Shown here: one piece after another, positions 1 through 24,379 of the stretch
How positions within the stretch are numbered: position 1 is the stretch's first letter
How the letters are laid out: every line of letters begins with the position of its first letter
Source of the DNA: Hydrogenimonas cancrithermarum
GTDB lineage: Bacteria; Campylobacterota; Campylobacteria; Campylobacterales; Hydrogenimonadaceae
Reading direction: 5' to 3'
DNA: 64,000 bases
NCBI RefSeq assembly: GCF_030296055.1
Contig: NZ_AP027370.1
Coordinates: 1,254,501 to 1,318,500 of the forward strand
Made by a program: the position numbers and the translations under genes
Notes under the pieces: generated by a model
What the model saw: only the letters and a program-made list of their open reading frames with translations
The model's database searches: none
Told to the model about the DNA's origin: nothing

Positions 1-410
1 CCGTCTTCCACCAGGATATCGAGTATTTTGCAGTCGAACTCCGCCTCGATTTCGTTCATGATCTTCATCGCCTCGATGATGCAGAGCGTCTGACCTTTGC
101 GAACGACATCGCCGATGTTGACAAACGGAGGGGAGTCCGGTGAAGGTGAGCGATAGAAGGTACCGACCATCGGAGAGGTGATGTAATCGGCATTTTCCGG
201 GATGCTCTTCTCACTCTGCTCTGTCGGAGCGGGGGCTGTTGCGGCAGGCGCCGGAGCGGCCTGTACCTGCTGTACCGGTGCCGCTGTGGCCGCCACGGCC
301 GCACCGCCTTTTTCGAGTGTCAGCGCAAAATCGCCGTCTTCGACTTTCAGCTTGCTCAAATCACTGCCGTTAAATACTTTTATCAGATCTTTTATCTCTT
401 TCAGATTCAT
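1..410 (-). CDS. accB: Biotin carboxyl carrier protein of acetyl-CoA carboxylase (3' end cut by window edge)
   Basis: AccB carries the biotin that shuttles carboxyl groups in the first step of fatty acid synthesis, in the cytosol. The protein starts [10 protein letters not shown], runs through an Ala/Pro-rich linker (about residues 35-70) and enters the biotinyl domain, where [12 protein letters not shown] holds the biotinylated Lys of the classic EAMKxMN motif. About 136 residues are visible; the family usually has about 150, so only the last few are missing at the left edge. The ATG at 408-410 is preceded by GGAGAATG. It is divergent from dcd, with an AT-rich 65-base gap between them. accC would be expected just outside the window. 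Confidence 0.95.
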
Positions 411-442
411 CACATTCTCCAAAAATTTAAAGTAAGGTGTAA

Positions 443-448
443 TATAAT
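443..448 (+). promoter_or_regulatory. -10 element of the dcd promoter
   Basis: TATAAT lies 27 bases before the dcd ATG in the AT-rich gap between divergent accB and dcd. No convincing -35 is visible, which is usual for sigma-70 promoters of Campylobacterota. GAGG at 465-468 is the ribosome-binding site. Confidence 0.55.
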
Positions 449-475
449 AACACATCTATATTTAGAGGATGATTG

Positions 476-1042
476 ATGGGGCTCAAGAGCGATACGTGGA
501 TACGTGAAAAAGCACTGAAAGAAAAGATGATCGAACCGTTTTGTGAAGATCAGGTGGGCAAAGGGGTCGTCAGCTACGGCCTCAGCAGTTACGGCTACGA
601 CATACGCGTCAGCGACGAATTCAAAATCTTCACCAACGTCAACGCCGAAGTGGTCGATCCAAAACACTTCGACGAGCGAAACGTCGTCGATTTTCAAGGC
701 GACATCTGTATCGTGCCGCCCAACTCCTTCGCGCTCGCGCGCACCGTCGAGTATTTCCGCATTCCCCGTAACGTCCTGGCGATCTGCCTGGGCAAAAGCA
801 CCTACGCCCGCTGCGGTATCATCGTCAACGTCACGCCGTTCGAACCCGAGTTCGAAGGCCACATCACGATCGAAATCTCCAACACGACACCGCTTCCGGC
901 CAAAATCTATGCCAACGAAGGGATCGCACAGGTACTCTTTTTCGAAGGTGACGAGATGTGCGAAACGAGCTACAAAGACAAAGCCGGCAAATACCAGGCA
1001 CAGACCGGCATCACGCTGCCGCGCATATTGAACGAAGATTGA
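476..1042 (+). CDS. dcd: dCTP deaminase
   Basis: Dcd deaminates dCTP to dUTP, feeding dTMP synthesis through dUTPase. The 188-residue protein has the family length and the trimer-forming core: an [13 protein letters not shown] segment near the N terminus, [10 protein letters not shown] with the conserved Ser and Arg at the nucleotide site, and [14 protein letters not shown] containing the catalytic Glu. Nothing marks it as the bifunctional dCTP deaminase/dUTPase form. I chose ATG 476 because GAGG lies seven bases upstream; a TTG directly before it (473) would add one residue. Its TGA overlaps the TTG start of the next gene (TTGA), which implies translational coupling. Confidence 0.95.
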
Positions 1043-1554
1043 GACAGACACTCATTCTGCTTCTTGTCGCACTCTTTGTCGCGGCCGCTTTCTACCTCAA
1101 CCGCTCGCGCCATCTCTCCAAAACGGAACACCGCCACGAAACGAAGCGCGAAGCGGCCGAATGTTCGGTGTGCAGAGAAAAAGAGAGTAAAAAGACACTG
1201 GAAGAGCTGCGCTCCGTCGCCTACCTGGAACGCTACATCGAAAATGTCATCAACAACGGCTCGTCCCAAAAACTCGGGTACGCCTACGGCGACATGCAAG
1301 CCGGTTTCGCCGATCCGGAGGCGGCCAAAAAGATCGCTGCCTACGTCGTCACTCTGGCAGGTCTGAAACCGACCCATCCCGAGTGGGTCAGGGAAGGACA
1401 CACCTTCTATGTCAGCAACTGCGGCGGATGCCACGGCGAAGACGGCAAAGGTGTCCACGGAACCTTCCCCGACCTGACGCGCCATCCGCTGCTGGGAATC
1501 GAAAAGCGCATCCGCGAGGCCGAGAAGCTGCGCTCATCCTCACCGAAAGAGTGA
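1039..1554 (+). CDS. Membrane-anchored c-type cytochrome
   Basis: An electron carrier probably tethered to the inner membrane and facing the periplasm. An uncleaved hydrophobic segment ([16 protein letters not shown], residues 4-19) is followed by two cytochrome-like halves. The first contains CSVC followed by Arg rather than His, so a covalent haem is doubtful there; it ends in an IAAYVVTLA helix typical of cytochrome c domains. The second has a good haem site, CGGCH, but the chain stops soon after FPDLTRHP, leaving little room for an axial Met. The start is TTG 1039, overlapping the dcd stop. It overlaps the convergent gene at 1540 by 15 bases. The electron partner is unknown. Confidence 0.8.
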
Positions 1555-2031
1555 AGCGAGCCTCTTCCAGTCGATCTTTTTCATCAGATCGAGCGCCTCT
1601 TTCCAATCCATGTTCTGGAAGTTCCCTCCCAGCACGGCGTTGTCCGCCAACCGGACGACGATGCCCCCCGAACGCTCTTTTTTGTCGTAGGAGATACCGA
1701 CCTGGAATCCGTCGATCGTTTCGAGTTTCACCAGCGCCTCGTCGTTTTCTATCGTGGTGCCGGCGGCGTAGGGTCCCCACATCATCATCGCCTGCATGCC
1801 GCTCACCACGGTCACTTCCAGGCTGCTGTCGCCTTTGGTATAGGTTTTGGCGGCCGTCACCACTTCGCCCATCATCGGGTTGACCATCTTCATCCCCTCA
1901 CATTTGGTGAGGGACCATCCGGGAATCTCTCCCAACTCTTCGCACAGCGTCTTGTAGTTCGGAAGATTCGCACCCAGAGCCAGTGTGGCGCCGAGGGCCA
2001 CGCTCAGTATACTTCTCGTTATCGGTTTCAT
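1540..2031 (-). CDS. Exported protein of unknown function, last gene of the OmpA operon
   Basis: A 163-residue protein with an N-terminal signal peptide (SILSVALGATLALGA, cleavage probably around residue 21). Two Cys lie close together in the mature N terminus (TLCEELGEIPGWSLTKCEG) and could form a disulfide. The rest alternates strands and turns, with a Met-rich stretch, MQAMMMW, near the middle. I do not recognise a named domain. Its ATG overlaps the stop of the beta-propeller-like gene (ATGA at 2028-2031), so it is translationally coupled. Location in the periplasm is inferred from the signal peptide. Confidence 0.8.
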   Translation of the reverse strand: MKPITRSILSVALGATLALGANLPNYKTLCEELGEIPGWSLTKCEGMKMVNPMMGEVVTAAKTYTKGDSSLEVTVVSGMQAMMMWGPYAAGTTIENDEALVKLETIDGFQVGISYDKKERSGGIVVRLADNAVLGGNFQNMDWKEALDLMKKIDWKRLASLFR

Positions 2032-3488
2032 CGTTCACTCCTTCTGTAGATATGTATGGTATCGAAATCACTGATAAACAGTGCATCGTCTCCCGCCGTC
2101 GCGTCCAGCACCGTCGAATCCGCAAAATCGACGAGCTGGCGCAATCGCAAATCCGAGGCGTCCAGCACCTTCAGCGCCACCGCCCGCCGCTTCAAACAGC
2201 CCCGGTAGGCGGCGAAGCGATTGTGCGGGGCGCTCATGAAGCCGAAGATATGGCGCCCATCCCGCGAGGGGAAAAAGAGGCCCGCATAACTTTCGTGCCT
2301 GCGGGAGGCGGCCACGGTGCGGCCCGTTTCGGCATCGAAGATCCGTAGCGCCCCGAAAATCGTCGAGGCGACGATCCTCCCGTCGCCGGGAAGAAAGGCG
2401 ACGCAGCGGTAGGGTTTGTAGCTCTCTTTCGTCCGCCACCGCAGGGTTTTTGTCTCGTAATTCCAGAGTCGTCCGTTGTCGTCGAAGAGCCAGGGGCGGG
2501 TATGGGCGAAGACGAAAGCCCCACCGCCCCCTTCGATCTCGAAAACCGGCCGCAGGCTCTTCGTGTCGAAAAGGCCGATGCCGCCGTCTTTCAGCAGCAG
2601 GGCGACACGCTCGCCGTTAGGCGAGAAGCGGTAGTGGGGGACGCGATAGGATTTTCCGAAAGCCTCCCCCGAACTGTCGCGGGAATCGAAAAGCAGGGTG
2701 CGCTTTTCAAGTCGCCAGGTTTTTCTGTCGATGAAACGCAGTGCCTTCTGGTTCCACTTTTTCGGGTTTTCGACCAGAAAGGTCAGAGACTCACCGTCGG
2801 ATGTGAAGCACACCTCGTCGACGGCGTTGGCGAAAATGGCGGAATAGAGCCTTTTGCCCGAGGGTACGGCCAGAACGTCGATGCGCCCGACGGGGTGGTA
2901 GCGCCCTTTGCTATCCTCCACGCTCAGATCGGTCAACACCGCCAGCTCGCGCCCGTCGGGAGAGAAGTCGAGCGACAGGACCGGCTGGTCGATACCCAGA
3001 GCGACTTTGCGCCATTCACCCCGGCCGCTCACCAGAATCACCCCCGTTTCGCCCAGATTGCCGATGGGCTCTTTGGAGGCTTCGGGGTGGCTTTTCGCAT
3101 AGGTCAGCGCCCCTTTCAGAAACAGCGGCACCGCCTCCTGCACCACCGCCGGAGGCATCAGGCGCTTCACCCACGAAGGGGCGCCGGACTCCTCCCGGGC
3201 CGCGGCTTTGCGGCCCGCCTCTCTCATCGCCTTTTCATACTTCTCCCAGCTGCCGTATTCGCGCCGGATCCCTTCGTCGATGATGGTACGCATCCTCTTT
3301 TCGTGGGCTTCGAGCTCTTCGGGGGTGGGCTCGACCTTGCTGACGTAACCGAAGGCGGCCCACTCGCCGCCCGATCGCGCGGGAGTGAAGTAGTAGGTGC
3401 CGGGAATTTGGATCTGCCGCGTCTGCTCGAACGGTGCGGCCCAGATCGCTGTGGCGAAGAGGAGAGAGAGGAGCCAAAGCGCTCTCAT
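2028..3488 (-). CDS. Exported WD40/beta-propeller-like protein
   Basis: A 486-residue protein with a short signal peptide (LWLLSLLFATAIWA). From about residue 150 onward it shows repeated blade-like units of the WD40/YVTN kind: LDFSPDGRELAVLTD, VCFTSDGESLTFLVE, YRFSPNGERVALLLKDGGIGLFD, CVAFLPGDGRIVASTIFGALRIFD and LFFPSRDGRHIFGF. The region at about residues 50-110 is rich in charged residues and may be helical. Such propellers normally act as protein-interaction scaffolds; no catalytic site is apparent. Both ends overlap neighbours by four bases (ATGA), so it is the fourth of five coupled genes. Its partner is probably another protein of the same operon, which is inference. Confidence 0.75.
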   Translation of the reverse strand: MRALWLLSLLFATAIWAAPFEQTRQIQIPGTYYFTPARSGGEWAAFGYVSKVEPTPEELEAHEKRMRTIIDEGIRREYGSWEKYEKAMREAGRKAAAREESGAPSWVKRLMPPAVVQEAVPLFLKGALTYAKSHPEASKEPIGNLGETGVILVSGRGEWRKVALGIDQPVLSLDFSPDGRELAVLTDLSVEDSKGRYHPVGRIDVLAVPSGKRLYSAIFANAVDEVCFTSDGESLTFLVENPKKWNQKALRFIDRKTWRLEKRTLLFDSRDSSGEAFGKSYRVPHYRFSPNGERVALLLKDGGIGLFDTKSLRPVFEIEGGGGAFVFAHTRPWLFDDNGRLWNYETKTLRWRTKESYKPYRCVAFLPGDGRIVASTIFGALRIFDAETGRTVAASRRHESYAGLFFPSRDGRHIFGFMSAPHNRFAAYRGCLKRRAVALKVLDASDLRLRQLVDFADSTVLDATAGDDALFISDFDTIHIYRRSER

Positions 3489-4246
3489 CTTGGCACTCCA
3501 CCGAAAGGAGCGATCGGAAAGGCGGCCGGCCCACGCGGCAGCGCGAAGGTTTTGGCCCGTTTTCTCGCTTTCGCGTCGATCGTCGTCTCGCCCCCTTCGA
3601 ATCCGAAGTCGATCAGTTCAGCACCCGGTCGCCCGGGAAGGCGGACGACACCGAAAGGGACCCGTTCACTCACGAGTATCGTCTCCCCCGTTTCGGAGGT
3701 GATGGCAGTCGCTTCAATCCTCTTTCCGCTCTTTAGCCTGACCGACCGCGAAGAGAGCCGCGGTATATGGGAACAATCGGGTGGTACATGGATCTGAGCG
3801 GGAGTGAGAATGGTGCTGAGACTCCGGCGCCCCATAAAAGTTTCGAGTATGGATAGCTGGGAGTAATCGAGCCGAAAGAGGCCATTTTTCGTGCGCACGA
3901 ACAGGAGACGTGGATCGAGGGTGCGCATCGTGTAGGTTTCGCCACCGATCGTGAAACGTTTGTCGACGATGGCGTACCAGACCTGTTCGACCACGGGAGC
4001 ATTCCCAAACTCGATACCTTGCAGGGTCGAGTTTCCGATGCGCGCTCTGCCGGCGTAGACGGCTTTGACGCTCCGGTCGCCGGCACGATACTCGGCCCAC
4101 GCGCCGGGCTCGAGTTTTTCGAACGCATCGGTCACGATGGCGTTTTGCAGATCGAACAGTTTTTGACTCGTTTCGATGCATAGCGCATCGTTTCCTGCCA
4201 TCAGGGGCAGCAGAGAGAGTATCAGCGTCAAAAAAATCCGTTTCAT
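3485..4246 (-). CDS. Exported protein of unknown function
   Basis: A 253-residue protein with a clear signal peptide (IFLTLILSLLPLMAG). The mature part is mostly beta-rich, with an AWAEYRAGDRSVKAVYAGR segment and a TYTMRTLDPRLLFVR segment, and ends in a Pro/Gly-rich tail. Two Cys (near residues 23 and 157) might pair. I do not recognise a family. It follows the Cys-rich gene by nine bases, and its stop overlaps the start of the propeller-like gene by four. Confidence 0.7.
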   Translation of the reverse strand: MKRIFLTLILSLLPLMAGNDALCIETSQKLFDLQNAIVTDAFEKLEPGAWAEYRAGDRSVKAVYAGRARIGNSTLQGIEFGNAPVVEQVWYAIVDKRFTIGGETYTMRTLDPRLLFVRTKNGLFRLDYSQLSILETFMGRRSLSTILTPAQIHVPPDCSHIPRLSSRSVRLKSGKRIEATAITSETGETILVSERVPFGVVRLPGRPGAELIDFGFEGGETTIDAKARKRAKTFALPRGPAAFPIAPFGGVPR

Positions 4247-4255
4247 TCCATCCTC

Positions 4256-5260
4256 CTATCTCAGCAATTCATAGCGGGGGCACCCCTCGGCGTCGATAAA
4301 GAAGCGGGCGTTGTTGTCCCTAGCTTTCCATCCCGGGGCGGGGGTTTCGACGATACGTCTGTATCCTCCCTCCCCATCGGGGACCCACCTCCACTCTTTC
4401 GTTTTGGCGGCACATCGGGGCGGAAGGTAGTAGAGGAGTTTCCCCCCTTCGGCCAGATGCGCGATCTGCTCCCGATCCTTTGCCGACAGCCCCAGGAGAT
4501 ACCCCCGGTTTTCGAGGGTTTCGAGAATCGTTCCGACGGCCTTGCCAAAATCGTAGTCGATTCTCTTTGGATGGGACTCTGTCCAGTAGATATCTTCGCG
4601 GCTGCGCTCCTCATCTCGGCTTTCGGGGAAATGTGCGCCGTAGACGACCTTTTTGAGCAGGGCGTTGATCCGGTGCAGGCTCGCCCTGGCCTCCTTCAGG
4701 CTTCCGAATCCTCCGGGCTCTCCGATGTTGGCTTCGATACGGAGGGTCTTCGGAGCTGGCCACCGAAGCTGCCACTTGAGAAAGTCGGGTTCCTGTACAG
4801 ACGCCGCTTCCCCGCCCCCTTTTGGGCAGAGATCGCGATCCTCACCGCTGCATTCACACCGCTCCTCTCCCGTGAGTTTGCGAACGAAGGCTTCGTCGAT
4901 CTTTCGGACCAGCTTCGCGTCCCCGGATTCGGGAGGAAGCTGGCAGGCATGAAAAACATCCCAACTGCCCATACACTCTTTGCGCTCGAAAAATCGGCTC
5001 AGATCCACCTGCGAACCCACTTTCGTGACCACTCTTTCCGGAGGGGGCGCCACGAGCACGATCTGTGCGATGTTCTCTTGGCTCTTTCCGATTTCGAGCC
5101 TGCGCGCCCCTGCCCTTTTTCTCAACCTCTCCACCTCTTCGGCGGGCGGTGTTTTCAGAGTGACGCCCGCTCTGTTCAGCTCGATGGCGAGGGTGTCCGG
5201 CATCGGCGGGCAGGCGAAGAGCCACCCGGCCAACGTCAGCAGGAGTGCCAGAGCTTTCAT
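4256..5260 (-). CDS. Exported Cys-rich protein of unknown function, possible lipoprotein
   Basis: A 334-residue protein. The N terminus ALALLLTLAGWLFAC could be a lipobox (LFAC) or an ordinary signal peptide. Cys residues cluster at KECMGSWDVFHACQ and ERCECSGEDRDLC (about residues 95-145), with further Cys near the C terminus (PPRCAAK, AEGCPRY), suggesting disulfides in the periplasm. No haem CxxCH and no known domain are visible. It lies four bases after the OmpA-type gene and nine before the next one, so it is a middle member of the operon. Confidence 0.7.
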   Translation of the reverse strand: MKALALLLTLAGWLFACPPMPDTLAIELNRAGVTLKTPPAEEVERLRKRAGARRLEIGKSQENIAQIVLVAPPPERVVTKVGSQVDLSRFFERKECMGSWDVFHACQLPPESGDAKLVRKIDEAFVRKLTGEERCECSGEDRDLCPKGGGEAASVQEPDFLKWQLRWPAPKTLRIEANIGEPGGFGSLKEARASLHRINALLKKVVYGAHFPESRDEERSREDIYWTESHPKRIDYDFGKAVGTILETLENRGYLLGLSAKDREQIAHLAEGGKLLYYLPPRCAAKTKEWRWVPDGEGGYRRIVETPAPGWKARDNNARFFIDAEGCPRYELLR

Positions 5261-5264
5261 GGCG

Positions 5265-6344
5265 CTACTTCACGATCCGTATCTCCACCCGTCGGTTCTT
5301 CGCGCGGCCCGCTTCGGTGGCGTTGTCGGCGATCGGGTCGGCTTTGCCCTTTCCGACGATCTCGAAAAGCTTCGAATCGACCTTTTCGCAGTAGATCAGA
5401 TAGTCCGCCACCGACTGGGCCCGCTGCAGGGAGAGTTTCAGGTTGTAGGCATCCGATCCTACGTTGTCGGTGTAACCGGTGACGATCAGCTTTTTGGCCG
5501 GATTTTCACGGATGATGTCGCCCACTACGCTCAGCGCCTCTTTGGCTTCGGGCTTGAGGATGAACTCGTTGAAACCGAAGAGCACCTTCTCCGGTACCGT
5601 CAGTTTCATCCCCTCTTTTGTCTTTTTGACGCCGATGCCCAGCTTTTCGGGGGTGGGCTTGGCCTCTTTTTTGGTATATCTGGCGACACGGATATTTGAA
5701 AGAAGCGCGCCGTAGGCCGGCATGTCCCAAAAGACGAATTCGAAGCCGTGGGCTTTAGCCTGAAAGGGGATCGAGGCCAGCCTCTTGCCATCGACGAAGA
5801 CGCGGTACTGATGGCGCCGAACCTGAAGGGCAAAGTGAAGCTTTTTGACGCTTGGGTGCCGCACATCCATCAGCTTGCCCACCTGGCCGAACTGGATGCG
5901 GTCGCCATAGAAGGTGAGATCGTAGGGTTCGTCGATATGCGGATGGGCCTCCCTGTCCCACTCTTTTTCGCTTTTACCCTGGGTCAAGAGGCGCATTTTC
6001 ACTTTGGGATTGATCCCCTTTTTGCTTTCAGGGTTGAGGAGCAGGTCGTACTCGATCGAAAAGTCGTTGCCGCCGAGGGCCAGCTTTTTCCAGAGCCGCA
6101 TGCCGTTGTCGGTGGAGGGAGCGATCCAGATATGGTCGTCGAATTTGACGCATTCGACCGCCTTTTCGAACTTGTCGAAGCCCTCGGGAAACTCCCCCAC
6201 CGGGCAGTCGCGGAAATCGGTCTCGAAGAGTACCTTGTCGCCGGGTTCGAACTTGGTGTACTTCGTCTTTCCCGTCACCAGGCCGCCGGCCACGAGCAGC
6301 ACCGGCAGCAGGAGCATCCATGAAAACGCGGCGATCTTTCTCAT
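5265..6344 (-). CDS. OmpA-family peptidoglycan-binding protein with an N-terminal beta-sandwich-like domain
   Basis: A 359-residue exported protein (signal peptide MRKIAAFSWMLLLPVLLVAGG). Residues about 30-230 look like a beta sandwich of the laminin-G/concanavalin type (FSIEYDLLLNP, LTFYGDRIQFGQ, YRVFVDGKRLASIPF). Residues about 250-359 form an OmpA C-terminal domain: LFGFNEFILKPEAKEAL, the peptidoglycan-binding Asp in VTGYTDNVGSDAYNLKLS, and the matching Arg in AKNRRVEI. There is no OmpA barrel, so it is probably periplasmic and anchored on murein. First gene of the operon, with an excellent Shine-Dalgarno (AAGGAGGTG). Confidence 0.85.
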   Translation of the reverse strand: MRKIAAFSWMLLLPVLLVAGGLVTGKTKYTKFEPGDKVLFETDFRDCPVGEFPEGFDKFEKAVECVKFDDHIWIAPSTDNGMRLWKKLALGGNDFSIEYDLLLNPESKKGINPKVKMRLLTQGKSEKEWDREAHPHIDEPYDLTFYGDRIQFGQVGKLMDVRHPSVKKLHFALQVRRHQYRVFVDGKRLASIPFQAKAHGFEFVFWDMPAYGALLSNIRVARYTKKEAKPTPEKLGIGVKKTKEGMKLTVPEKVLFGFNEFILKPEAKEALSVVGDIIRENPAKKLIVTGYTDNVGSDAYNLKLSLQRAQSVADYLIYCEKVDSKLFEIVGKGKADPIADNATEAGRAKNRRVEIRIVK

Positions 6345-13160: not shown

Positions 13161-15368
13161 TTGAAAAACCTCATCATCGTCGAGTCGCCGGCCAAAGCGC
13201 GCACCATCAAAAATTTTCTGGGGAAAGATTACGAAGTGATCGCCTCCAAGGGGCACATTCGCGACCTTCCCAAACACAGCTTCGGCATCAAGATCGAAGA
13301 TGACAGGTTCGAACCGCAGTATCGGGTGGACAAGGACCACAGTGCCATCGTCAAGCAGATCAAGGATCTGGCCAAAAAGAGCGACCAGGTCTACATCGCG
13401 ACGGACGAGGACCGCGAAGGGGAGGCGATCGGCTACCATATCGCCAAGGCGATCGGCAAAGACCCGGAAGCGCTGCCGCGCATCGTCTTTCACGAAATCA
13501 CCAAGAGCGCCATCCAGCACGCGCTGGAAAACCCGCGCAAAATCGACATGGACCAGGTCAACGCCCAGCAGGCGCGCCGGCTTCTCGACCGCATCGTCGG
13601 CTACAAGCTCTCGCCTCTGTTGGCTTCCAAAATACAAAAAGGGCTGAGCGCCGGGCGCGTCCAGTCGGCGGCACTGAAGATCGTCGTCGACCGCGAACGG
13701 GAAATCCAGGCGTTCAAACCGGTCGAGTACTGGAGCGTCGATGCCGTTTTCAGACCGGAAATCGAAGCGGGGCTTGTCGAATACAGGGGCAAGAAGATCG
13801 AAAAAATGACGATCGGCGACGAGAAAGAGGCGCGTGAAATCGAAGCGACGCTGAAGGGCGAAACCTACCGCGTCAAAAGCATCGAGAAGCGACAGCGCAA
13901 GAGCTCGACACCGCCGCCATTCATGACGTCGACGCTGCAGCAAAGCGCTTCGGGGCGCCTCAGTTTCTCGCCCAAAAAGACGATGATGATCGCACAGAAG
14001 CTTTATGAAGGCGTCAAGACCGATCAGGGACAGATGGGGGTCATCACCTACATGCGTACCGACAGCCTCAACATCGCCAAAGAGGCGCGCGACGCGGCAC
14101 GCGAGACCATTTTGAAAACCTACGGGGAGAAATACCTGCCGCCCAAGCCGAAGATCTACAGTTCCAAAGCCAAAGGCGCGCAGGAGGCGCACGAAGCGAT
14201 CCGCCCGACGCGTCTCGACTTCACACCCCAGATCGCGGCGAAGTACCTGGCACCCGACGAACTGAAACTCTATAAACTCATCTACAACCGCTTTCTCGCC
14301 AGCCAGATGGCCGACGCGATTCTCGAGTCGCAAACCATCCTCTTCGCCTCCGAACACGGCGTCTTCAAGGCAACGGGCCGGAAACTGCTCTTCGACGGTT
14401 TCTACCGTGTCATGGGCTACGACGACAGGGACAAACTGCTCCCCGAACTGAAAGAGGGCGAAGAGGTGCCATTGGAGAAACTGACGGCCAACCAGCACTT
14501 CACCGAACCGCCGCCACGCTACACGGAAGCCAGCCTCATCAAAAAACTCGAATCCCTCGGCATCGGCCGTCCGAGTACCTACGCACCGACCATCTCGCTG
14601 CTGGTTTCGCGCGAATACCTCAAGATCGAAAAGCGGCAGCTGATCCCGACCCCGATCGCCTTCACCGTCATCGAAATTCTCGAGAAACACTTCCCGGAAA
14701 TCGTCGACTCCAATTTTACCGCCGAGATGGAGGAGAAACTCGACGAAGTGGCCGAGAAGAAGGTCGACTGGCAAAAACTTCTGCTCGATTTCTACCAACC
14801 CTTCATCGAAAAGGTCGAAAAGGGGAAAAAAGAGATCAAGAGCCTCAAAAAGGCCGAACCCATCGGACGTGAATGTCCCGAATGCGGGAGTGAACTGCTG
14901 CTTCGAAGCGGCCGTTACGGTGACTTCATCGCCTGCAGCAACTACCCCAAATGCCGCTATACCGAAGCGATCGAGAAGGAGGGTGAAGAGAAACCCACAC
15001 CGCAGACGACGGATGAAGTGTGCGACAAGTGCGGTGCACCGATGGTCATCAAGAGCGGCCGGCGCGGAGCGTTTCTCGCCTGCAGCGCGTACCCCAAATG
15101 CAAAAACACCAAACCGCTCGAAAAGCCCAAGACACTCGAGGTCAAGTGTCCCGAATGCGGCGGCGAACTGCTCGAGCGCAACTCGCGCCGCGGCAAATTC
15201 TTCGGCTGCAGCAACTACCCGAAGTGCACCTTCGTAAGCAAGTTCGAGCCGACCGAGAAGAAATGCCCCGAGTGTGGCTACCCGATGGCACGGCGTACCT
15301 TCCGCGGCAAAGAGGTTTATGAGTGCATCAAGTGCAAACACCGGGAGGATGCCGAGCCGGCATCCTGA
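13161..15368 (+). CDS. topA: DNA topoisomerase I
   Basis: Type IA topoisomerase that relaxes negative supercoils. The Toprim domain opens with LIIVESPAKARTIKNFLG and holds the acidic ATDEDREGEAIGYH triad. The active-site Tyr is in GVITYMRTDSLNI (about residues 290-302). The C terminus carries four zinc ribbons: CPEC/CSNYPKC, CDKC/CSAYPKC, CPEC/CSNYPKC and CPEC/CIKC. 735 residues fits the group. The start is TTG at 13161, since the family N terminus begins immediately there and AGGAAA precedes it. It is divergent from fliD. Confidence 0.96.
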   Translation: MKNLIIVESPAKARTIKNFLGKDYEVIASKGHIRDLPKHSFGIKIEDDRFEPQYRVDKDHSAIVKQIKDLAKKSDQVYIATDEDREGEAIGYHIAKAIGKDPEALPRIVFHEITKSAIQHALENPRKIDMDQVNAQQARRLLDRIVGYKLSPLLASKIQKGLSAGRVQSAALKIVVDREREIQAFKPVEYWSVDAVFRPEIEAGLVEYRGKKIEKMTIGDEKEAREIEATLKGETYRVKSIEKRQRKSSTPPPFMTSTLQQSASGRLSFSPKKTMMIAQKLYEGVKTDQGQMGVITYMRTDSLNIAKEARDAARETILKTYGEKYLPPKPKIYSSKAKGAQEAHEAIRPTRLDFTPQIAAKYLAPDELKLYKLIYNRFLASQMADAILESQTILFASEHGVFKATGRKLLFDGFYRVMGYDDRDKLLPELKEGEEVPLEKLTANQHFTEPPPRYTEASLIKKLESLGIGRPSTYAPTISLLVSREYLKIEKRQLIPTPIAFTVIEILEKHFPEIVDSNFTAEMEEKLDEVAEKKVDWQKLLLDFYQPFIEKVEKGKKEIKSLKKAEPIGRECPECGSELLLRSGRYGDFIACSNYPKCRYTEAIEKEGEEKPTPQTTDEVCDKCGAPMVIKSGRRGAFLACSAYPKCKNTKPLEKPKTLEVKCPECGGELLERNSRRGKFFGCSNYPKCTFVSKFEPTEKKCPECGYPMARRTFRGKEVYECIKCKHREDAEPAS

Positions 15369-15381
15369 TGTTGGATTTTGG

Positions 15382-15912
15382 ATGATTTTAGGGATCTTGT
15401 CCGACACGCATAAAAAAGTGGGCCGCGCCAAAAAAGCGATCGATATGCTTTTGGAAAACGGTGCGGAGTATCTCATCCATGCCGGCGACATCGGGAAAGA
15501 GGAGGTATTGGCCTATATGGAGAGCACACGCGTCCCCTACACGGCGGTACTGGGCAACAACGACCGCAAACTTGTCCCGTTGAAGGAGCGCTACCACCTC
15601 TTTACGGAGCCGCACTACTTCTGCATCGGCGACTTGAACGTCAAACTGATGCACCACCCCTGGTTCCTGAGCCCCGATGCCGATCTGATCGTCTTCGGCC
15701 ACACCCACAAGTTTTCTCTGGAGTGCCGTACGGCAGGCCAGCTTTTTCTCAACCCGGGTGAAGTGTGTGCCCGAAACAAGCCGGTCAGCGAAGCGGTGCT
15801 TCTCAAGGTTCTCAAAGATGCATGGGAAGTGACCCACTGCCAAAGACGCATCAAAGAAACAACTTGGCACTATAACAAAAAAATATGTGAAAGAGTCGTC
15901 GAACATGTCTAA
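15382..15912 (+). CDS. Metallophosphoesterase, YfcE/MJ0936 type
   Basis: A 176-residue two-metal phosphodiesterase. The metal motifs appear in order: GILSDTH near the N terminus, LIHAGDIGKEEV, VLGNNDRK and VFGHTHKF. This minimal fold hydrolyses phosphodiesters; the physiological substrate is not evident. The ATG at 15382 is chosen because the family begins at MxLGILSDTH and because upstream sequence still codes for the topA zinc ribbon in another frame. The 13 bases between topA and this start, plus the start itself, show a short GATGTTG/GATTTTG heptad pattern. The 3' end overlaps bioB by eight bases. Confidence 0.88.
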   Translation: MILGILSDTHKKVGRAKKAIDMLLENGAEYLIHAGDIGKEEVLAYMESTRVPYTAVLGNNDRKLVPLKERYHLFTEPHYFCIGDLNVKLMHHPWFLSPDADLIVFGHTHKFSLECRTAGQLFLNPGEVCARNKPVSEAVLLKVLKDAWEVTHCQRRIKETTWHYNKKICERVVEHV

Positions 15913-20584: not shown

Positions 20585-21634
20585 TTACTCCTCTCCAGCT
20601 GATTTAATCTCTTCTTCGCTCATTTCGAGCATCTTGCTCCCGATACCGAGCGCCTGCTTGATCTCCTCTTCGATCTGTTCCGCAAGCTCCCGGTTCTCTT
20701 TGAGTGTCTGTTTGGCGTTTTCGCGTCCCTGGCCCAGCTTCGTCTCTTTGTAACTGAACCACGAACCGCTTTTATCGATAATGTCGAGTTTCACACCGTA
20801 ATCGATGATCTCGCCCTCTTTGCTGATCCCCTCGCCGAACATGATGTCGAACTCGGCGATCCTGAACGGAGGCGCCACCTTGTTTTTGACCACTTTGGCC
20901 TTGACGCGGTTTCCGATCTGGTTTTCACCCTGTTTCAGCGTCGCGATACGGCGCACGTCGACACGAACGGAAGCGTAGAACTTCAGGGCGTTACCGCCGG
21001 TCGTCGTCTCCGGGCTTCCATACCCCATCGTACCGATCTTCATACGGATCTGGTTGATGAAGATGACCGTCGTCTCCATTTTGTGGAGCACGCCTGTCAG
21101 TTTTCGAAGCGCCTGGCTCATCAGACGTGCCTGCAAGCCGACGTGGGTATCGCCCATGTCACCCTCGATCTCGGCCTTGGGTGTCAGCGCCGCGACCGAG
21201 TCGACGACGATGACGTCGACCGCACCGCTTCGTGCGATCGTCTCGACGATATCGAGCGCCTGCTCCCCGAAGTCGGGCTGGCTCACCAACAGGTTTTCGA
21301 CATCGACTCCCAAGTTCTTCGCGTAGCGCACGTCAAGCGCATGTTCCGCGTCTATGAAGGCACATATACTGTTGTTTTTCTGCGCCTCGGAGATAATCTG
21401 CAGCGCCAGTGTCGTCTTACCGGAACTCTCCGGCCCGTAGATTTCGATGATACGCCCGCGCGGCACGCCGCCGATACCGAGTGCCATATCGAGCCCCAGA
21501 GAACCGGTGCTGATCGCTTCGATCGGTTCGATCTCCTTGTCGCCGAGGCGAACGAGCGCCCCTTTGCCGAACGCCTTGTCGATCTGTTTGATCGCGACGT
21601 CCAACGCTTTCTGTTTATTCGGATCGATGTCCAT
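20585..21634 (-). CDS. recA: Recombinase A
   Basis: Strand-exchange protein for homologous recombination and the DNA damage response. The Walker A motif is [12 protein letters not shown]; the Walker B region is [20 protein letters not shown] and the L2 loop with [19 protein letters not shown] are typical. 349 residues with an acidic C-terminal tail ([12 protein letters not shown]). A -10-like TAAAAT lies about 30 bases upstream on the minus strand; I see no LexA-type box. Confidence 0.97.
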
Positions 21635-21707
21635 AAATACCTCACGTAAATTTGAAATTAGAGATATTTTAACACTATTTCGATAAAATCAAGCAAAAAC
21701 TGAATCA

Positions 21708-21797
21708 GTGGGAAGTGAGAAGCAAGAAGTGGTAAACAGTCAGCCGCAAGAAGATTCGATCCAGAGTCCAAAATCGAGAACCCAAAATCCCATCACC
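21708..21797. repeat. Degenerate heptameric repeat tract at the start of mqnD
   Basis: The stretch reads in steps of seven: GTGGGAA, GTGAGAA, GCAAGAA, GTGGTAA, then GAGTCCA, AAATCGA, GAACCCA, AAATCCC. CAAAATC occurs twice. The pattern continues straight into the coding sequence of mqnD. Confidence 0.6.
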
Positions 21798-22643
21798 ATC
21801 GCACACTCGCCCGATGCGGACGATATCTTCATGTACTACGCTGTCAAGTTCGGATGGGTTTCGACACCGGCACCGTTCGAAAATATCGCACTCGACATCG
21901 AAACACTCAACGAAGCGGCGATCGCGGGCACCTACGACGTCACGGCGATCAGCTTCGCGCTCTACCCGAAAATCCGTGACGACTTCGCGCTCCTTCGCAC
22001 CGCCGTGAGTTTCGGCGAGGGGTACGGCCCAAAGCTCATCAAACCCAAAGGGAAACGACTGCGCCGAAACTTCAAAGTGGCACTCAGCGGCCGCCACACG
22101 ACCAATGCGATGCTCTTTCGCATCGCCTACCCCGAAGCGCGTATCGTCTACAAAAACTTTCTGGAGATCGAAAAGGCGGTACTCGAGGGTGAAGTGGACG
22201 CCGGCGTACTGATCCACGAAAGTATCCTCGATTTCGACGAAAGCCTCGAAGTGGAACGCGAAATCTGGGATATCTGGCAGGAACTCGCAGGCAAAACGCT
22301 GCCGCTGCCGCTCGGGGGCATGGCTCTGCGCCGCTCCATTCCGCTGACGCGTGCCATCGCCGTCGAAAAGGCACTGATCAAAGCGGTCGACGTCGCCAAC
22401 ACCCACCGCGGCCTTCTGGCGAAAATGCTTCTGGAACGCGATCTCGTACGCATCGACGCCCCCACGCTCGACAGATACCTCGACCTCTACGCCAACGACA
22501 AATCGGTGACGATGGACGAAACCCAGCTCGAAGCCCTCGACCGCCTCTTTCGGATCGGCTACGACCACGGATTCTACGAATGCCCGATCCACGCCGAAGA
22601 TTTCATGATTCCGCATGAATATTTGGAAGCGAGAAACTCATGA
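21708..22643 (+). CDS. mqnD: 1,4-dihydroxy-6-naphthoate synthase of the futalosine pathway
   Basis: MqnD converts cyclic dehypoxanthinyl futalosine to 1,4-dihydroxy-6-naphthoate on the way to menaquinone. ITIAHSPDADDIFMYYAVKFGW, GTYDVTAISFALYPKI, LSGRHTTNAMLFRIA and GVLIHESILDF are characteristic. Family members begin close to the ITIAHSPDADD segment, but no ATG is nearby; the usable starts are GTG 21708 and GTG 21729, giving a 21 to 28-residue polar extension encoded by heptameric repeats. A TAAAAT at about 21683 would make the message nearly leaderless at 21708. The exact start is uncertain; the rest is firm. Confidence 0.9.
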   Translation: MGSEKQEVVNSQPQEDSIQSPKSRTQNPITIAHSPDADDIFMYYAVKFGWVSTPAPFENIALDIETLNEAAIAGTYDVTAISFALYPKIRDDFALLRTAVSFGEGYGPKLIKPKGKRLRRNFKVALSGRHTTNAMLFRIAYPEARIVYKNFLEIEKAVLEGEVDAGVLIHESILDFDESLEVEREIWDIWQELAGKTLPLPLGGMALRRSIPLTRAIAVEKALIKAVDVANTHRGLLAKMLLERDLVRIDAPTLDRYLDLYANDKSVTMDETQLEALDRLFRIGYDHGFYECPIHAEDFMIPHEYLEARNS

Positions 22644-22725
22644 TGGAAATGGGGAATTGAAAATGGTAAAAAGGAGCGGAGCGACTTTTCCTGAATTCTC
22701 CATTTTCCATTTTCCATTTTCCATT
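22643..22725. repeat. Inverted heptameric repeat tract between mqnD and fliQ
   Basis: After the mqnD stop there are units ATGGAAA, TGGGGAA, TTGAAAA, TGGTAAA, then a GGAGCGGAGCG centre, then units on the opposite strand: CCATTTT three times and CCATTCG. The left units are the reverse complement type of the right ones, so the tract could fold into an imperfect long hairpin. Confidence 0.65.
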
Positions 22726-22746
22726 CGCTCCTTCGTGGAAGGAGCG
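22726..22746 (+). promoter_or_regulatory. Perfect hairpin enclosing the fliQ ribosome-binding site
   Basis: CGCTCCTTC and GAAGGAGCG are perfect nine-base complements separated by GTG. The right arm contains AAGGAG, the ribosome site for the GTG start of fliQ at 22751. If transcription comes from mqnD, fliQ translation would be masked unless the hairpin opens. Confidence 0.6.
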
Positions 22747-22750
22747 TAAC

Positions 22751-23017
22751 GTGGAAGCCCAATTCATCGCTCTCGGGGTCGAAACGCTCAAGGTCGCCCT
22801 TATTCTCTCACTGCCGATGTTGCTCGCAGGTCTCATCGCCGGACTGGCCATCAGCATTTTCCAGGCGACGACCCAGATCAACGAGATGACGCTCAGTTTC
22901 ATTCCGAAAATCATCATCGTCGCACTCGTCATGATCATCACGATGCCGTGGATGATGAATACGATGATCGACTTCACGACCCGCCTCTTCGATATGATCA
23001 AGGATTTCGCCTTTTGA
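22751..23017 (+). CDS. fliQ: Flagellar export apparatus protein FliQ
   Basis: An 88-residue inner-membrane component of the flagellar type III export gate, four copies of which join FliP and FliR. Two membrane helices are evident (VALILSLPMLLAGLIAGLAI and IIIVALVMIITMPW), joined by the conserved FQATTQINEMTLSFIPK loop. The start is GTG at 22751, right after AAGGAGCGTAAC. Its TGA overlaps the TTG start of murB. Confidence 0.95.
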   Translation: MEAQFIALGVETLKVALILSLPMLLAGLIAGLAISIFQATTQINEMTLSFIPKIIIVALVMIITMPWMMNTMIDFTTRLFDMIKDFAF

Positions 23018-23802
23018 GAAAACGGCAGATCGACTTCTCGAAATTCTCAAGCATCAAGATCGGTCCAACCGTCGATGTCGCCGTCCTTGAAAAAGGGGAC
23101 AACCCACCCGAAGACCACACCCTTGTCGGTCATGCCAACAACCTCCTGGTGGGCCCGACCCCACCCCCGCTGATGATGCTCGGAAAAGATTTCGACTACC
23201 TTCGAATCGAAGGTGAACGATTGATCATAGGTGCCGCCACGCCGACGGGGAAAATTCTCTCGTTTTGCAAAAAGCACGATATCGGGGGCTTCGAGTATGT
23301 CGCGAAACTTCCAGGCACACTGGGCGGAATGCTGGCGATGAACGCCGGGGTCAAATCGCATGAAACCTTCGACACTCTCGTGGAGATCTCGACAAACGAG
23401 GGAACGTTCCCAAAAACGGCGATAGCGCACGGTTACCGCTTCGCGAAGCTGCCGGGTGTCGCCTACGAAGCGTCGTTCCTCTTCAAAAAAGGGTTCGATA
23501 CCGCACTGGCCGAGGAGCTGCTTCGGCTGAGGAACAATCAGCCGAAAGAGCCGAGTGCCGGAAGCGCTTTCAAAAATCCGCCGGGCGATTATGCCGGACG
23601 GCTCATCGAAGCGGCCGGCCTCAAAGGGTACCGCATCGGAAATATGGCCTGGAGCGGTATGCACGCCAACTTTCTCGTCAATCTCGGCGGCGGCACCTTC
23701 GACGAAGCGATGGAGTTGATAACACTCGCCCAAAGCCGTGTCGCCTCCATTTTCGGCATTACCCTCGAACTCGAACTCAAAATAATTAATAACTCTCATT
23801 AA
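23014..23802 (+). CDS. murB: UDP-N-acetylenolpyruvoylglucosamine reductase
   Basis: FAD enzyme of peptidoglycan precursor synthesis. The FAD-binding half shows FSSIKIG near the N terminus and LPGTLGGMLAMNAGVKSHE; the C-terminal domain has PSAGSAFKNPPGDYAGRLIEAAGLKG, with the Ser that protonates the substrate, and SGMHANFLVN. 262 residues matches the short MurB of Campylobacterota. The start is TTG 23014 overlapping the fliQ stop (TTGA); the family N terminus does not extend further upstream. Confidence 0.93.
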   Translation: MRKRQIDFSKFSSIKIGPTVDVAVLEKGDNPPEDHTLVGHANNLLVGPTPPPLMMLGKDFDYLRIEGERLIIGAATPTGKILSFCKKHDIGGFEYVAKLPGTLGGMLAMNAGVKSHETFDTLVEISTNEGTFPKTAIAHGYRFAKLPGVAYEASFLFKKGFDTALAEELLRLRNNQPKEPSAGSAFKNPPGDYAGRLIEAAGLKGYRIGNMAWSGMHANFLVNLGGGTFDEAMELITLAQSRVASIFGITLELELKIINNSH

Positions 23803-23822
23803 ACATTTTTATTTCATAAATT

Positions 23823-23864
23823 CTTCTGATTTGTTATATAATTCCTCAAAATTTTTATCAGAAG
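23823..23864 (+). promoter_or_regulatory. Promoter of the YedE-type transporter genes flanked by an inverted repeat
   Basis: TATAAT at 23837-23842 lies between CTTCTGAT (23823-23830) and its perfect complement ATCAGAAG (23857-23864). The right arm runs into the ribosome site GAAGGA. Because the -10 is inside the repeat, the left arm is not in the transcript, so the dyad would act on DNA, for instance as a regulator site. Confidence 0.5.
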
Positions 23865-23872
23865 GATGACTT

Positions 23873-24379
23873 ATGCCACGGAAAATATCCTGGTTTACAG
23901 GCGGCATTTTGATGGCGCTGCTGATTCTCTTTACCTTTTCGATCTGGGGCGCCGACCGACCAATCGGTGCTTCGACCTACGTTCCCTACTTTGCAAGCAT
24001 CATCTTCGGACTTGATCCCGAGCAGTATGAGTATGTTGCGGAAGTGGAAAAAGCGGGGGCATGGGAAGGTGTCATGCTCATCGGTGCCTTTCTCGGTGGT
24101 CTCTTCATGTCGATTTTCGTCACCAAAACCTTCCGGTTCAGCGTCCTCCCGGCGCTGTGGAAAGAGCGTAAAAACCATTCGGTCGCGTCCCGTCTTTTCT
24201 GGAGTTTCACCGCCGGCTTCATCATGATCGTCGGTGCGCGCCTGGCGGGTGGATGCACCAGCGGTCACTTTCTCTCCGGTGCCAGCCAGATCGCCGTAAG
24301 CGGTCTGATCTTCGGCGGTATCACGATGGCGACGGTGATCATCACCGGCCGGCTCTTCTATAAAAGAAAGGGAGCGTGA
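23873..24379 (+). CDS. YeeE/YedE family transporter half, sulfur-compound uptake
   Basis: A 168-residue membrane protein with about four helices. The segment GARLAGGCTSGHFLSGASQIAVSG carries the conserved GGCTSGH with its Cys, the hallmark of YeeE/YedE (TsuA-like) proteins, which pass thiosulfate or related sulfur compounds through a Cys-lined path. It is half the size of the fused form and is followed at once by a second half, so the two probably form one transporter. The substrate is inferred from the family. Confidence 0.87.
   Translation: MPRKISWFTGGILMALLILFTFSIWGADRPIGASTYVPYFASIIFGLDPEQYEYVAEVEKAGAWEGVMLIGAFLGGLFMSIFVTKTFRFSVLPALWKERKNHSVASRLFWSFTAGFIMIVGARLAGGCTSGHFLSGASQIAVSGLIFGGITMATVIITGRLFYKRKGA

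Follow-up and report, generated by a model that had tools for sequence, protein, structure and literature searches.

In Hydrogenimonas, in other Campylobacterota and on plasmids of several phyla, genes of the S23p family (PF05635/TIGR02436) were found between two inverted arrays of heptanucleotides whose units match within each locus; over all loci compared, 53 of 71 had an arm score of at least 15. By comparison with these loci, the heptad tract between mqnD and fliQ in the window (the whole stretch of 64,000 nucleotides analysed, C1:1143484-1207483 of the 2,378,694-base genome G000) probably represents both ends of a small IVS-like element, from which the S23p gene was lost or in which it was never carried.

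The tract consists of two arms and a spacer. The downstream arm (22695..22725, − strand) is a clean period-7 run according to TRF, composed of ATTCT, three CCATTTT units and CCATT on the + strand, and reading AATGGAA inward on the − strand. Its run score is 21, whereas the maxima of 200 dinucleotide shuffles of the window average 8.2 and never exceed 12, which bears out the right-hand CCATTTT units named in the original prediction. The upstream arm (22644..22667, + strand) is a degenerate heptad array located immediately 3′ of the mqnD stop codon (22641-22643); its inverted-match score of 15.0 was attained by 2 of 100 random 800-bp segments. The left units proposed earlier thus do form a degenerate inverted partner, but they are irregular and seem to be of one type only when taken together. 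Between the arms lies an interior spacer containing GGAGCGGAGCGACTTTTCC (22668..22694, no strand assigned; sequence and fold). In the predicted fold, the two arms pair with each other, and the 110 nt 3′ of mqnD form one long stem (−45.7 kcal/mol, z −5.5) with GGAGCGGAGCG at its centre, i.e., complementary inverted termini forming a stem, as in an IVS. A short hairpin, CGCTCCTTC-GTG-GAAGGAGCG (22726..22746, + strand, from the fold), follows ahead of fliQ and carries AAGGAG, a ribosome-binding-like site, in its 3′ strand.

Both neighbouring genes were assigned as ORFs on the + strand (mqnD, 21708..22643; fliQ, 22751..23017), with names taken from the original prediction; the mqnD product is 78-92% identical to its ten closest matches, from Hydrogenimonas or Campylobacterales MAGs. 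The first codons of mqnD cross a second inverted heptad tract (21707..21790, no strand assigned), degenerate and recognized by eye; a tract of the same kind had been claimed here, and an inverted pair is indeed visible, although it stays under the run threshold. The GTG start of the ORF (21708) lies within this tract, and the real start of mqnD is uncertain because matches in several relatives begin only at residue 20-30. GGTCATT-type arrays were found ahead of the same gene at two further loci (L076 and L079). The window DNA is repeated at 100% identity 111,017 bases further along C1 of G000, covering at least window positions 1-5500 and 21140-24252 (3113 bp around the tract), which is either a large duplication or an assembly artefact.

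Tracts of this period are dispersed over the genome. In a sample of 464 kb (the window and twenty 20-kb stretches, evenly spaced except for L066, shifted off the window, and L070, placed near known tracts), 21 period-7 runs scored at least 12. Periods 5, 8, 10, 11 and 13 gave 0, 1, 0, 1 and 0 runs, periods 6, 9 and 12 gave 1, 4 and 4, and the runs of period 14 (18) and 21 (10) are for the most part echoes of period 7. In 98 kb from eleven loci of close relatives, 12 period-7 runs were present, and no other period between 4 and 17 gave any except 14; 662 kb of other Campylobacterota contained three period-7 runs, one of which is a run of N. L070 was excluded from the ORF controls and from the junction count, leaving 14 tracts scoring at least 12 in 444 kb. 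Eight of these have an ORF end no more than 60 bp away, and six lie mostly outside crude ORFs, though ORFs cover 91.6% of the sequence. The original prediction was to be given up if there were neither further tracts nor an excess of period seven; further tracts exist, and period 7 stands out. Its dispersed repeat family survives as a dispersed set of period-7 tracts, not as one sequence family, because the units differ: CCATTTT, GAGTTAA, GAGTTTT, TAGTGAG, GAGTGTT, AATCCAA, AAGTGAG and others in the sample, with AATGGAA, AATGGAG, AGTGTTG and GATTTTG also among the units of this genome. Common to the tracts are the period, an inverted arrangement and an inward strand poor in C. A GATTTTG link between mqnD and topA, also part of the earlier claim, is unsupported since the topA tract (15367-15383) scores 7, which is within noise; elsewhere in the genome, exact arrays of three GATTTTG units were found at two places. 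The mqnD-fliQ tract resembles heptanucleotide SSRs or STRRs in being tandem, of period 7, intergenic and above chance, but many units, not one, are used within this genome. Most heptad tracts of the genome either stand alone or have a partner whose unit differs. Long perfect CCATCTT arrays are present at C1 804000-804053, 810523-810625 and 1022949-1023037; no matched partner was found within 800 bp of the two tested.

A gene for a four-helix bundle is located between two arrays of G000. A PF05635 search of this genome returned five genes, all five bracketed by inverted arrays (at one locus, L157, with period 8). The five proteins matched TIGR02436 with E values of 1.2e-27 or better, and that of L156 matched structure 2gsc (XCC0516, an S23p homologue of X. 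campestris and the only solved relative) at 6.6e-13. Forty S23p genes exceeded the cut-off in 17 of 18 Hydrogenimonas genomes, and 32 of them were compared (eight were left out; three more rows lay below the cut-off) by matching upstream flanks with reverse-complemented downstream flanks in own and in mixed pairs. Own pairs scored 20.1 on average versus 9.2 for mixed pairs (0 of 10,000 permutations), with 26 loci at 15 or higher and six below; a fixed terminal inverted repeat common to the copies, as in MITEs, is thus not what these loci have. Across the phylum, 20 of 200 genomes drawn carry the family above the cut-off, and the 19 loci used of 23 new ones (L203-L206, partial or below the cut-off, were omitted) gave 18.4 versus 9.1 (0 of 10,000 permutations), 12 of them scoring at least 15 and seven less. 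As a control, 354 ORFs of the genome sample were examined: score 7 runs flanked one of them on both sides versus 24 of the 32 S23p genes, and score 8 runs none versus 20.

The same arrangement was found on plasmids. The first S23p query, run on 72,556 plasmids, returned eight records, all cyanobacterial, with own pairs at 19.1 versus 9.3 for mixed pairs (five loci scoring at least 15, three under) and runs on both sides of six of the eight genes versus 0.2% of random positions in the plasmid background. From three more queries (25, 10 and 39 records, overlapping), 12 loci were chosen for phylum variety: Monoglobus, Treponema, Bernardetia, Euhalothece, Chlorohelix (twice), Azospirillum, Gemmatirosa, Riemerella, Anabaena, Pseudanabaena and Dolichospermum, representing Bacillota, Spirochaetota, Bacteroidota, Chloroflexota, Alphaproteobacteria, Gemmatimonadota and Cyanobacteriota. 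Here, own pairs reached 21.3 versus 8.5 (0 of 20,000 permutations; 10 loci at 15 or higher, two under). The Azospirillum copy (L307), the only locus compared with Rfam, lies inside LSU rRNA (RF02541, 1463.7 bits); it is a classical IVS and has heptad ends of the same kind. Phages gave no match to one S23p query, and no transposase was seen inside the elements. By crude longest-ORF rules, both flanking genes are codirectional with S23p at 24 of 32 Hydrogenimonas and 17 of 19 other Campylobacterota loci; on cyanobacterial plasmids, two copies run antisense to the genes on either side. Plasmid copies were seen within defence operons (loci L301, L296, L310, L305 and L312): between hsdS and hsdR in Monoglobus, between cas6 and cas4 in Pseudanabaena, between cas2 and cas1 in Anabaena, and, in Chlorohelix and Dolichospermum, after helicase genes, with an N-6 DNA methylase gene or a hypothetical gene alongside. 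At L156 and L159, the arrays extend into the 5′ codons of the gene downstream, and the resulting N-terminal extensions are short and repetitive (e.g., MKKKFSILHSPFSIRK and MKEKRSQHSTLNTQHSRK).

The behaviour of the arms indicates that the units change while the two ends stay matched. In 39 of 45 pairs, both arms have period 7, and three pairs have period 8; the inward strand is poor in C (A 951, G 935, T 834, C 254), an avoidance that constitutes a strong composition signal; pairs scoring under 14 were omitted from this analysis and from the correlation of unit and protein given below. Eight-base units, also matched and inverted, occur at L157, L179 and L298:36462. A common unit skeleton, RRT, was discarded because its information, 4.43, exceeds chance only slightly (4.07, sd 0.13; at most 4.37 in 60 nulls). 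Among 24 loci from five sites (cysD-cysN, hldD-hldE, tpiA-fabI, rho-murI and emrA-emrB, named by eye from translated flanks), own pairs matched better than cross-species pairs at the same site (0 of 20,000 permutations). The S23p tree unites the seven tpiA-fabI rows (98/78), the three emrA-emrB rows (95/83) and four of six cysD-cysN rows (97/91; L162 stands apart), and the gene is therefore largely inherited in place, with its unit turning over; the hldD-hldE rows are not monophyletic. L157, from hldD-hldE, is sister (100/98) to L179, from a different site and species, and the two have the rare eight-base unit AGGTGAGA in common, which suggests movement together with the unit. Among 1426 pairs from different sites and genomes, more similar S23p proteins had more similar arms (r 0.284, attained in 0 of 2000 permutations), the arm score averaging 5.2 where the proteins were less than 30% identical and 11.2 where they were more than 70% identical. 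Co-inheritance alone can explain this correlation. Unit exchange between sites of one genome was weak, 308 of 5000 permutations reaching the observed value, and was rejected. Differences between the arms of S23p loci are not enriched in G-U-compatible changes (44 compatible versus 50 not, 19 versus 20, and 3 versus 9; pairs scoring under 13 were omitted from this and the unit-exchange test), and the matching therefore probably arises on DNA. The S23p gene itself looks to be under purifying selection where dS is measurable (median dN/dS 0.14 in the only six pairs with 0.05<dS<2; dS is saturated in most pairs).

At the junction of the window, fliQ was located in 16 of 18 congeneric genomes, and arrays lie between mqnD and fliQ in eight of them (G000, G001, G004, G010, G011, G013, G014 and G017) and are absent there from the other eight. 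Wherever both arms are in view, the layout of inward array, hairpin and inverted array is kept and the unit differs: AATGGAA in G000, AATGGAG/AATTGAG in G014, AGTGAAG/AGTGAAA in G013, AGTGAAA and AGTGAAT in G004, AATGGAG/AGTGAAT in G011, AGTTAAA/AGTGAAA in G010, and AGTGAAA in G017. The interior spacer of G011, G013 and G014 also carries a hairpin of the form GGATGC(GC stem)GC, the G013 copy folds with z −5.3, and small hairpins similar to 22726..22746 precede fliQ in G004, G011, G013 and G014. No S23p gene (PF05635/TIGR02436) was found at mqnD-fliQ in the 16 genomes, and the descent of this tract from a full element is thus argued by analogy.

The analogy comes from sites at which full and gene-less states coexist. 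At tpiA-fabI (15 genomes), S23p with arms is present in eight; G005 has arms without S23p, G003 an inverted pair of other sequence, and G007 arms enclosing a 17-codon S23p remnant, whereas G002, G009 (11 bp, empty) and G016 have no arms, and in G004 a contig end interrupts the site (the S23p copy of this genome there is L173). At cysD-cysN (10 genomes), six have S23p and G000 (23 bp), G003 (17 bp), G010 and G016 do not, the last with a short GATGTTG tract; the empty sites come from other species and look strongly diverged. A hairpin module, GGATGC(GC stem)GCTTCCAT, stands beside an arm at both tpiA-fabI and mqnD-fliQ. Because of these site states and the module common to both junctions, the mqnD-fliQ tract was read as a gene-less copy, and the remnant between the arms in G007 implies that gene loss, too, yields gene-less pairs.

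A complete element comprises an inward heptad array, an S23p gene encoding a four-helix bundle of ∼120 aa (PF05635/TIGR02436) and a matching inverted array, ∼500 bp in all, and usually sits between two operon genes near a stop/start junction. Each array may turn over by slippage, and one arm may be copied onto the other on DNA, by template switching or short conversion between the inverted arms; a reverse transcriptase would not be required. We infer that the element moves, that S23p, likely a pentamer, binds its own arrays and thereby aids persistence or movement of the element, and that the arms form a stem in the transcript that RNase III could excise, as in rRNA IVSs. Insertion between operon genes would then cost little, since the stem would be cleavable. 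The mqnD-fliQ copy and many of the lone tracts would be scars of such elements.

Ordinary slippage could also have made the arrays as simple-sequence repeats, with S23p genes merely nearby. In many genomes, long SSRs are most often heptamers, and a polymerase slipping by 7 nt has been suggested (Mrazek 2007, cited in PMC4679880); moreover, most tracts of the genome are lone. We nevertheless consider this quite unlikely, given the two-sided arrays at 24 of 32 S23p genes versus 1 of 354 ORFs and arms that are inverted and unit-matched per element; slippage alone gives no common unit to arms ∼450 bp apart. A selected RNA stem in the operon transcript (an RNase III site, a terminator or a coupling device) would fit the fold of the window copy (z −5.5) and of the G013 copy (z −5.3), the cleavage of classical IVSs by RNase III at such stems (PMC4990558, in the part available), and the differences within seven mqnD-fliQ pairs, nine of which are wobble-compatible versus three in the reverse sense. 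The missing G-U bias at S23p loci (44 versus 50, 19 versus 20, 3 versus 9) means that pairing of the sense transcript fails to explain the matching there, and it was rejected as the cause, the small mqnD-fliQ set leaning the opposite way (9 to 3). With the units of the G011 and G014 pairs differing as well, and half of the congeners having nothing at this junction, selection for an RNA stem is a doubtful explanation of the pair.

Inverted heptad pairs might instead have existed first as host palindromes, whose loops S23p genes entered later, just as rRNA IVSs occupy hairpin tips (PMC4990558, in the part available). Pairs without S23p do exist, as at mqnD-fliQ in 8 of 16 genomes, but gene-less relatives often have no arrays at all (G000, G003 and G010 at cysD-cysN; G002, G009 and G016 at tpiA-fabI), units track the S23p sequence across sites and genomes, and G007 retains an S23p remnant between its arms, which makes this order of events unlikely. 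That a DGR- or telomerase-like reverse transcriptase writes the arrays, partnered by an Avd-like S23p, is very improbable. The NCBIfam model DivGenRetAVD matched two of the five proteins (E ∼2e-4, far below its cut-off), but RVT_1 was found in only two of 18 congeneric genomes, was absent from the other 16 and was absent from G000, in which the reverse transcriptase that characterizes a DGR is thus missing; for G000, this mechanism is refuted unless another kind of polymerase is involved. The reading of the tract as the two ends of an S23p element stays the preferred one.

Knowledge of intergenic heptanucleotide repeats, in cyanobacteria, Xanthomonas and others, goes back to about 1990. To our knowledge, they are unexplained in many bacterial genomes, and S23p is a common family without a known function. 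The link gives context to both, with the repeats as element ends and S23p as a candidate for the protein that binds them; it also carries IVS elements beyond rRNA into operons and offers a natural case of two inverted arrays altering their sequence in concert. Tentatively, S23p may be the end-recognition factor of widespread minimal elements with self-rewriting heptad arrays as terminal inverted repeats, the 23S IVS being one niche. The end sequence could then drift and the ends stay matched because seven-base spacing would be recognized, not a fixed sequence, perhaps with one S23p protomer per heptad unit. If true, much of the known intergenic heptanucleotide DNA, including that of cyanobacteria and Xanthomonas, would be ends or scars of S23p elements. 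In a literature search that left subscription papers mostly outside, so that an older description is possible, no paper tied intergenic heptad arrays to S23p; S23p family names appeared there in a single paper, on DGRs.

Cyanobacterial STRRs are alike in period 7, intergenic position and variable units such as GGGAGTA or GGGAACA, and STRR-like arrays flank S23p genes on cyanobacterial plasmids. We know of no description of STRR heptanucleotides that includes a partner gene. Like MITEs and insertion sequences, the elements have inverted ends and gene-less derivatives; unlike them, their ends are arrays with a unit differing per element, and no transposase was seen. The DGR accessory protein Avd belongs to a related four-helix family, as judged from a weak profile match, but G000 has no reverse transcriptase. 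The GGGAATC and GGGGA(C/T)T heptamers of Xanthomonas and Nostoc (PMC4692102) and the TAACTGA repeats of Beggiatoaceae (PMC4679880) likewise have period 7, lie near ORF ends, and form arrays of few units that vary among close relatives, as here; in the available sections of these two papers, they are read as G-quadruplexes or translation control, with no link to S23p. A close parallel is the 23S rRNA IVS of Coxiella, Leptospira and others, an S23p gene between complementary termini (∼450 nt). As far as the accessible part of PMC4990558 goes, the Coxiella IVS has three tandem GACAGAT heptamers ahead of the S23p ORF, varying in number between strains, and a 28-bp terminal stem; RNase III excises the IVS from the transcript in Coxiella and others, and S23p of X. 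campestris is a pentamer. In contrast to these, the elements described here lie between protein genes of operons, several per genome, their units turn over between species, their S23p is apparently under purifying selection and not decaying, and the window copy, without an S23p gene, sits between mqnD and fliQ and not in 23S rRNA. The rRNA-borne copy of Azospirillum (L307) has heptad ends of the same kind.
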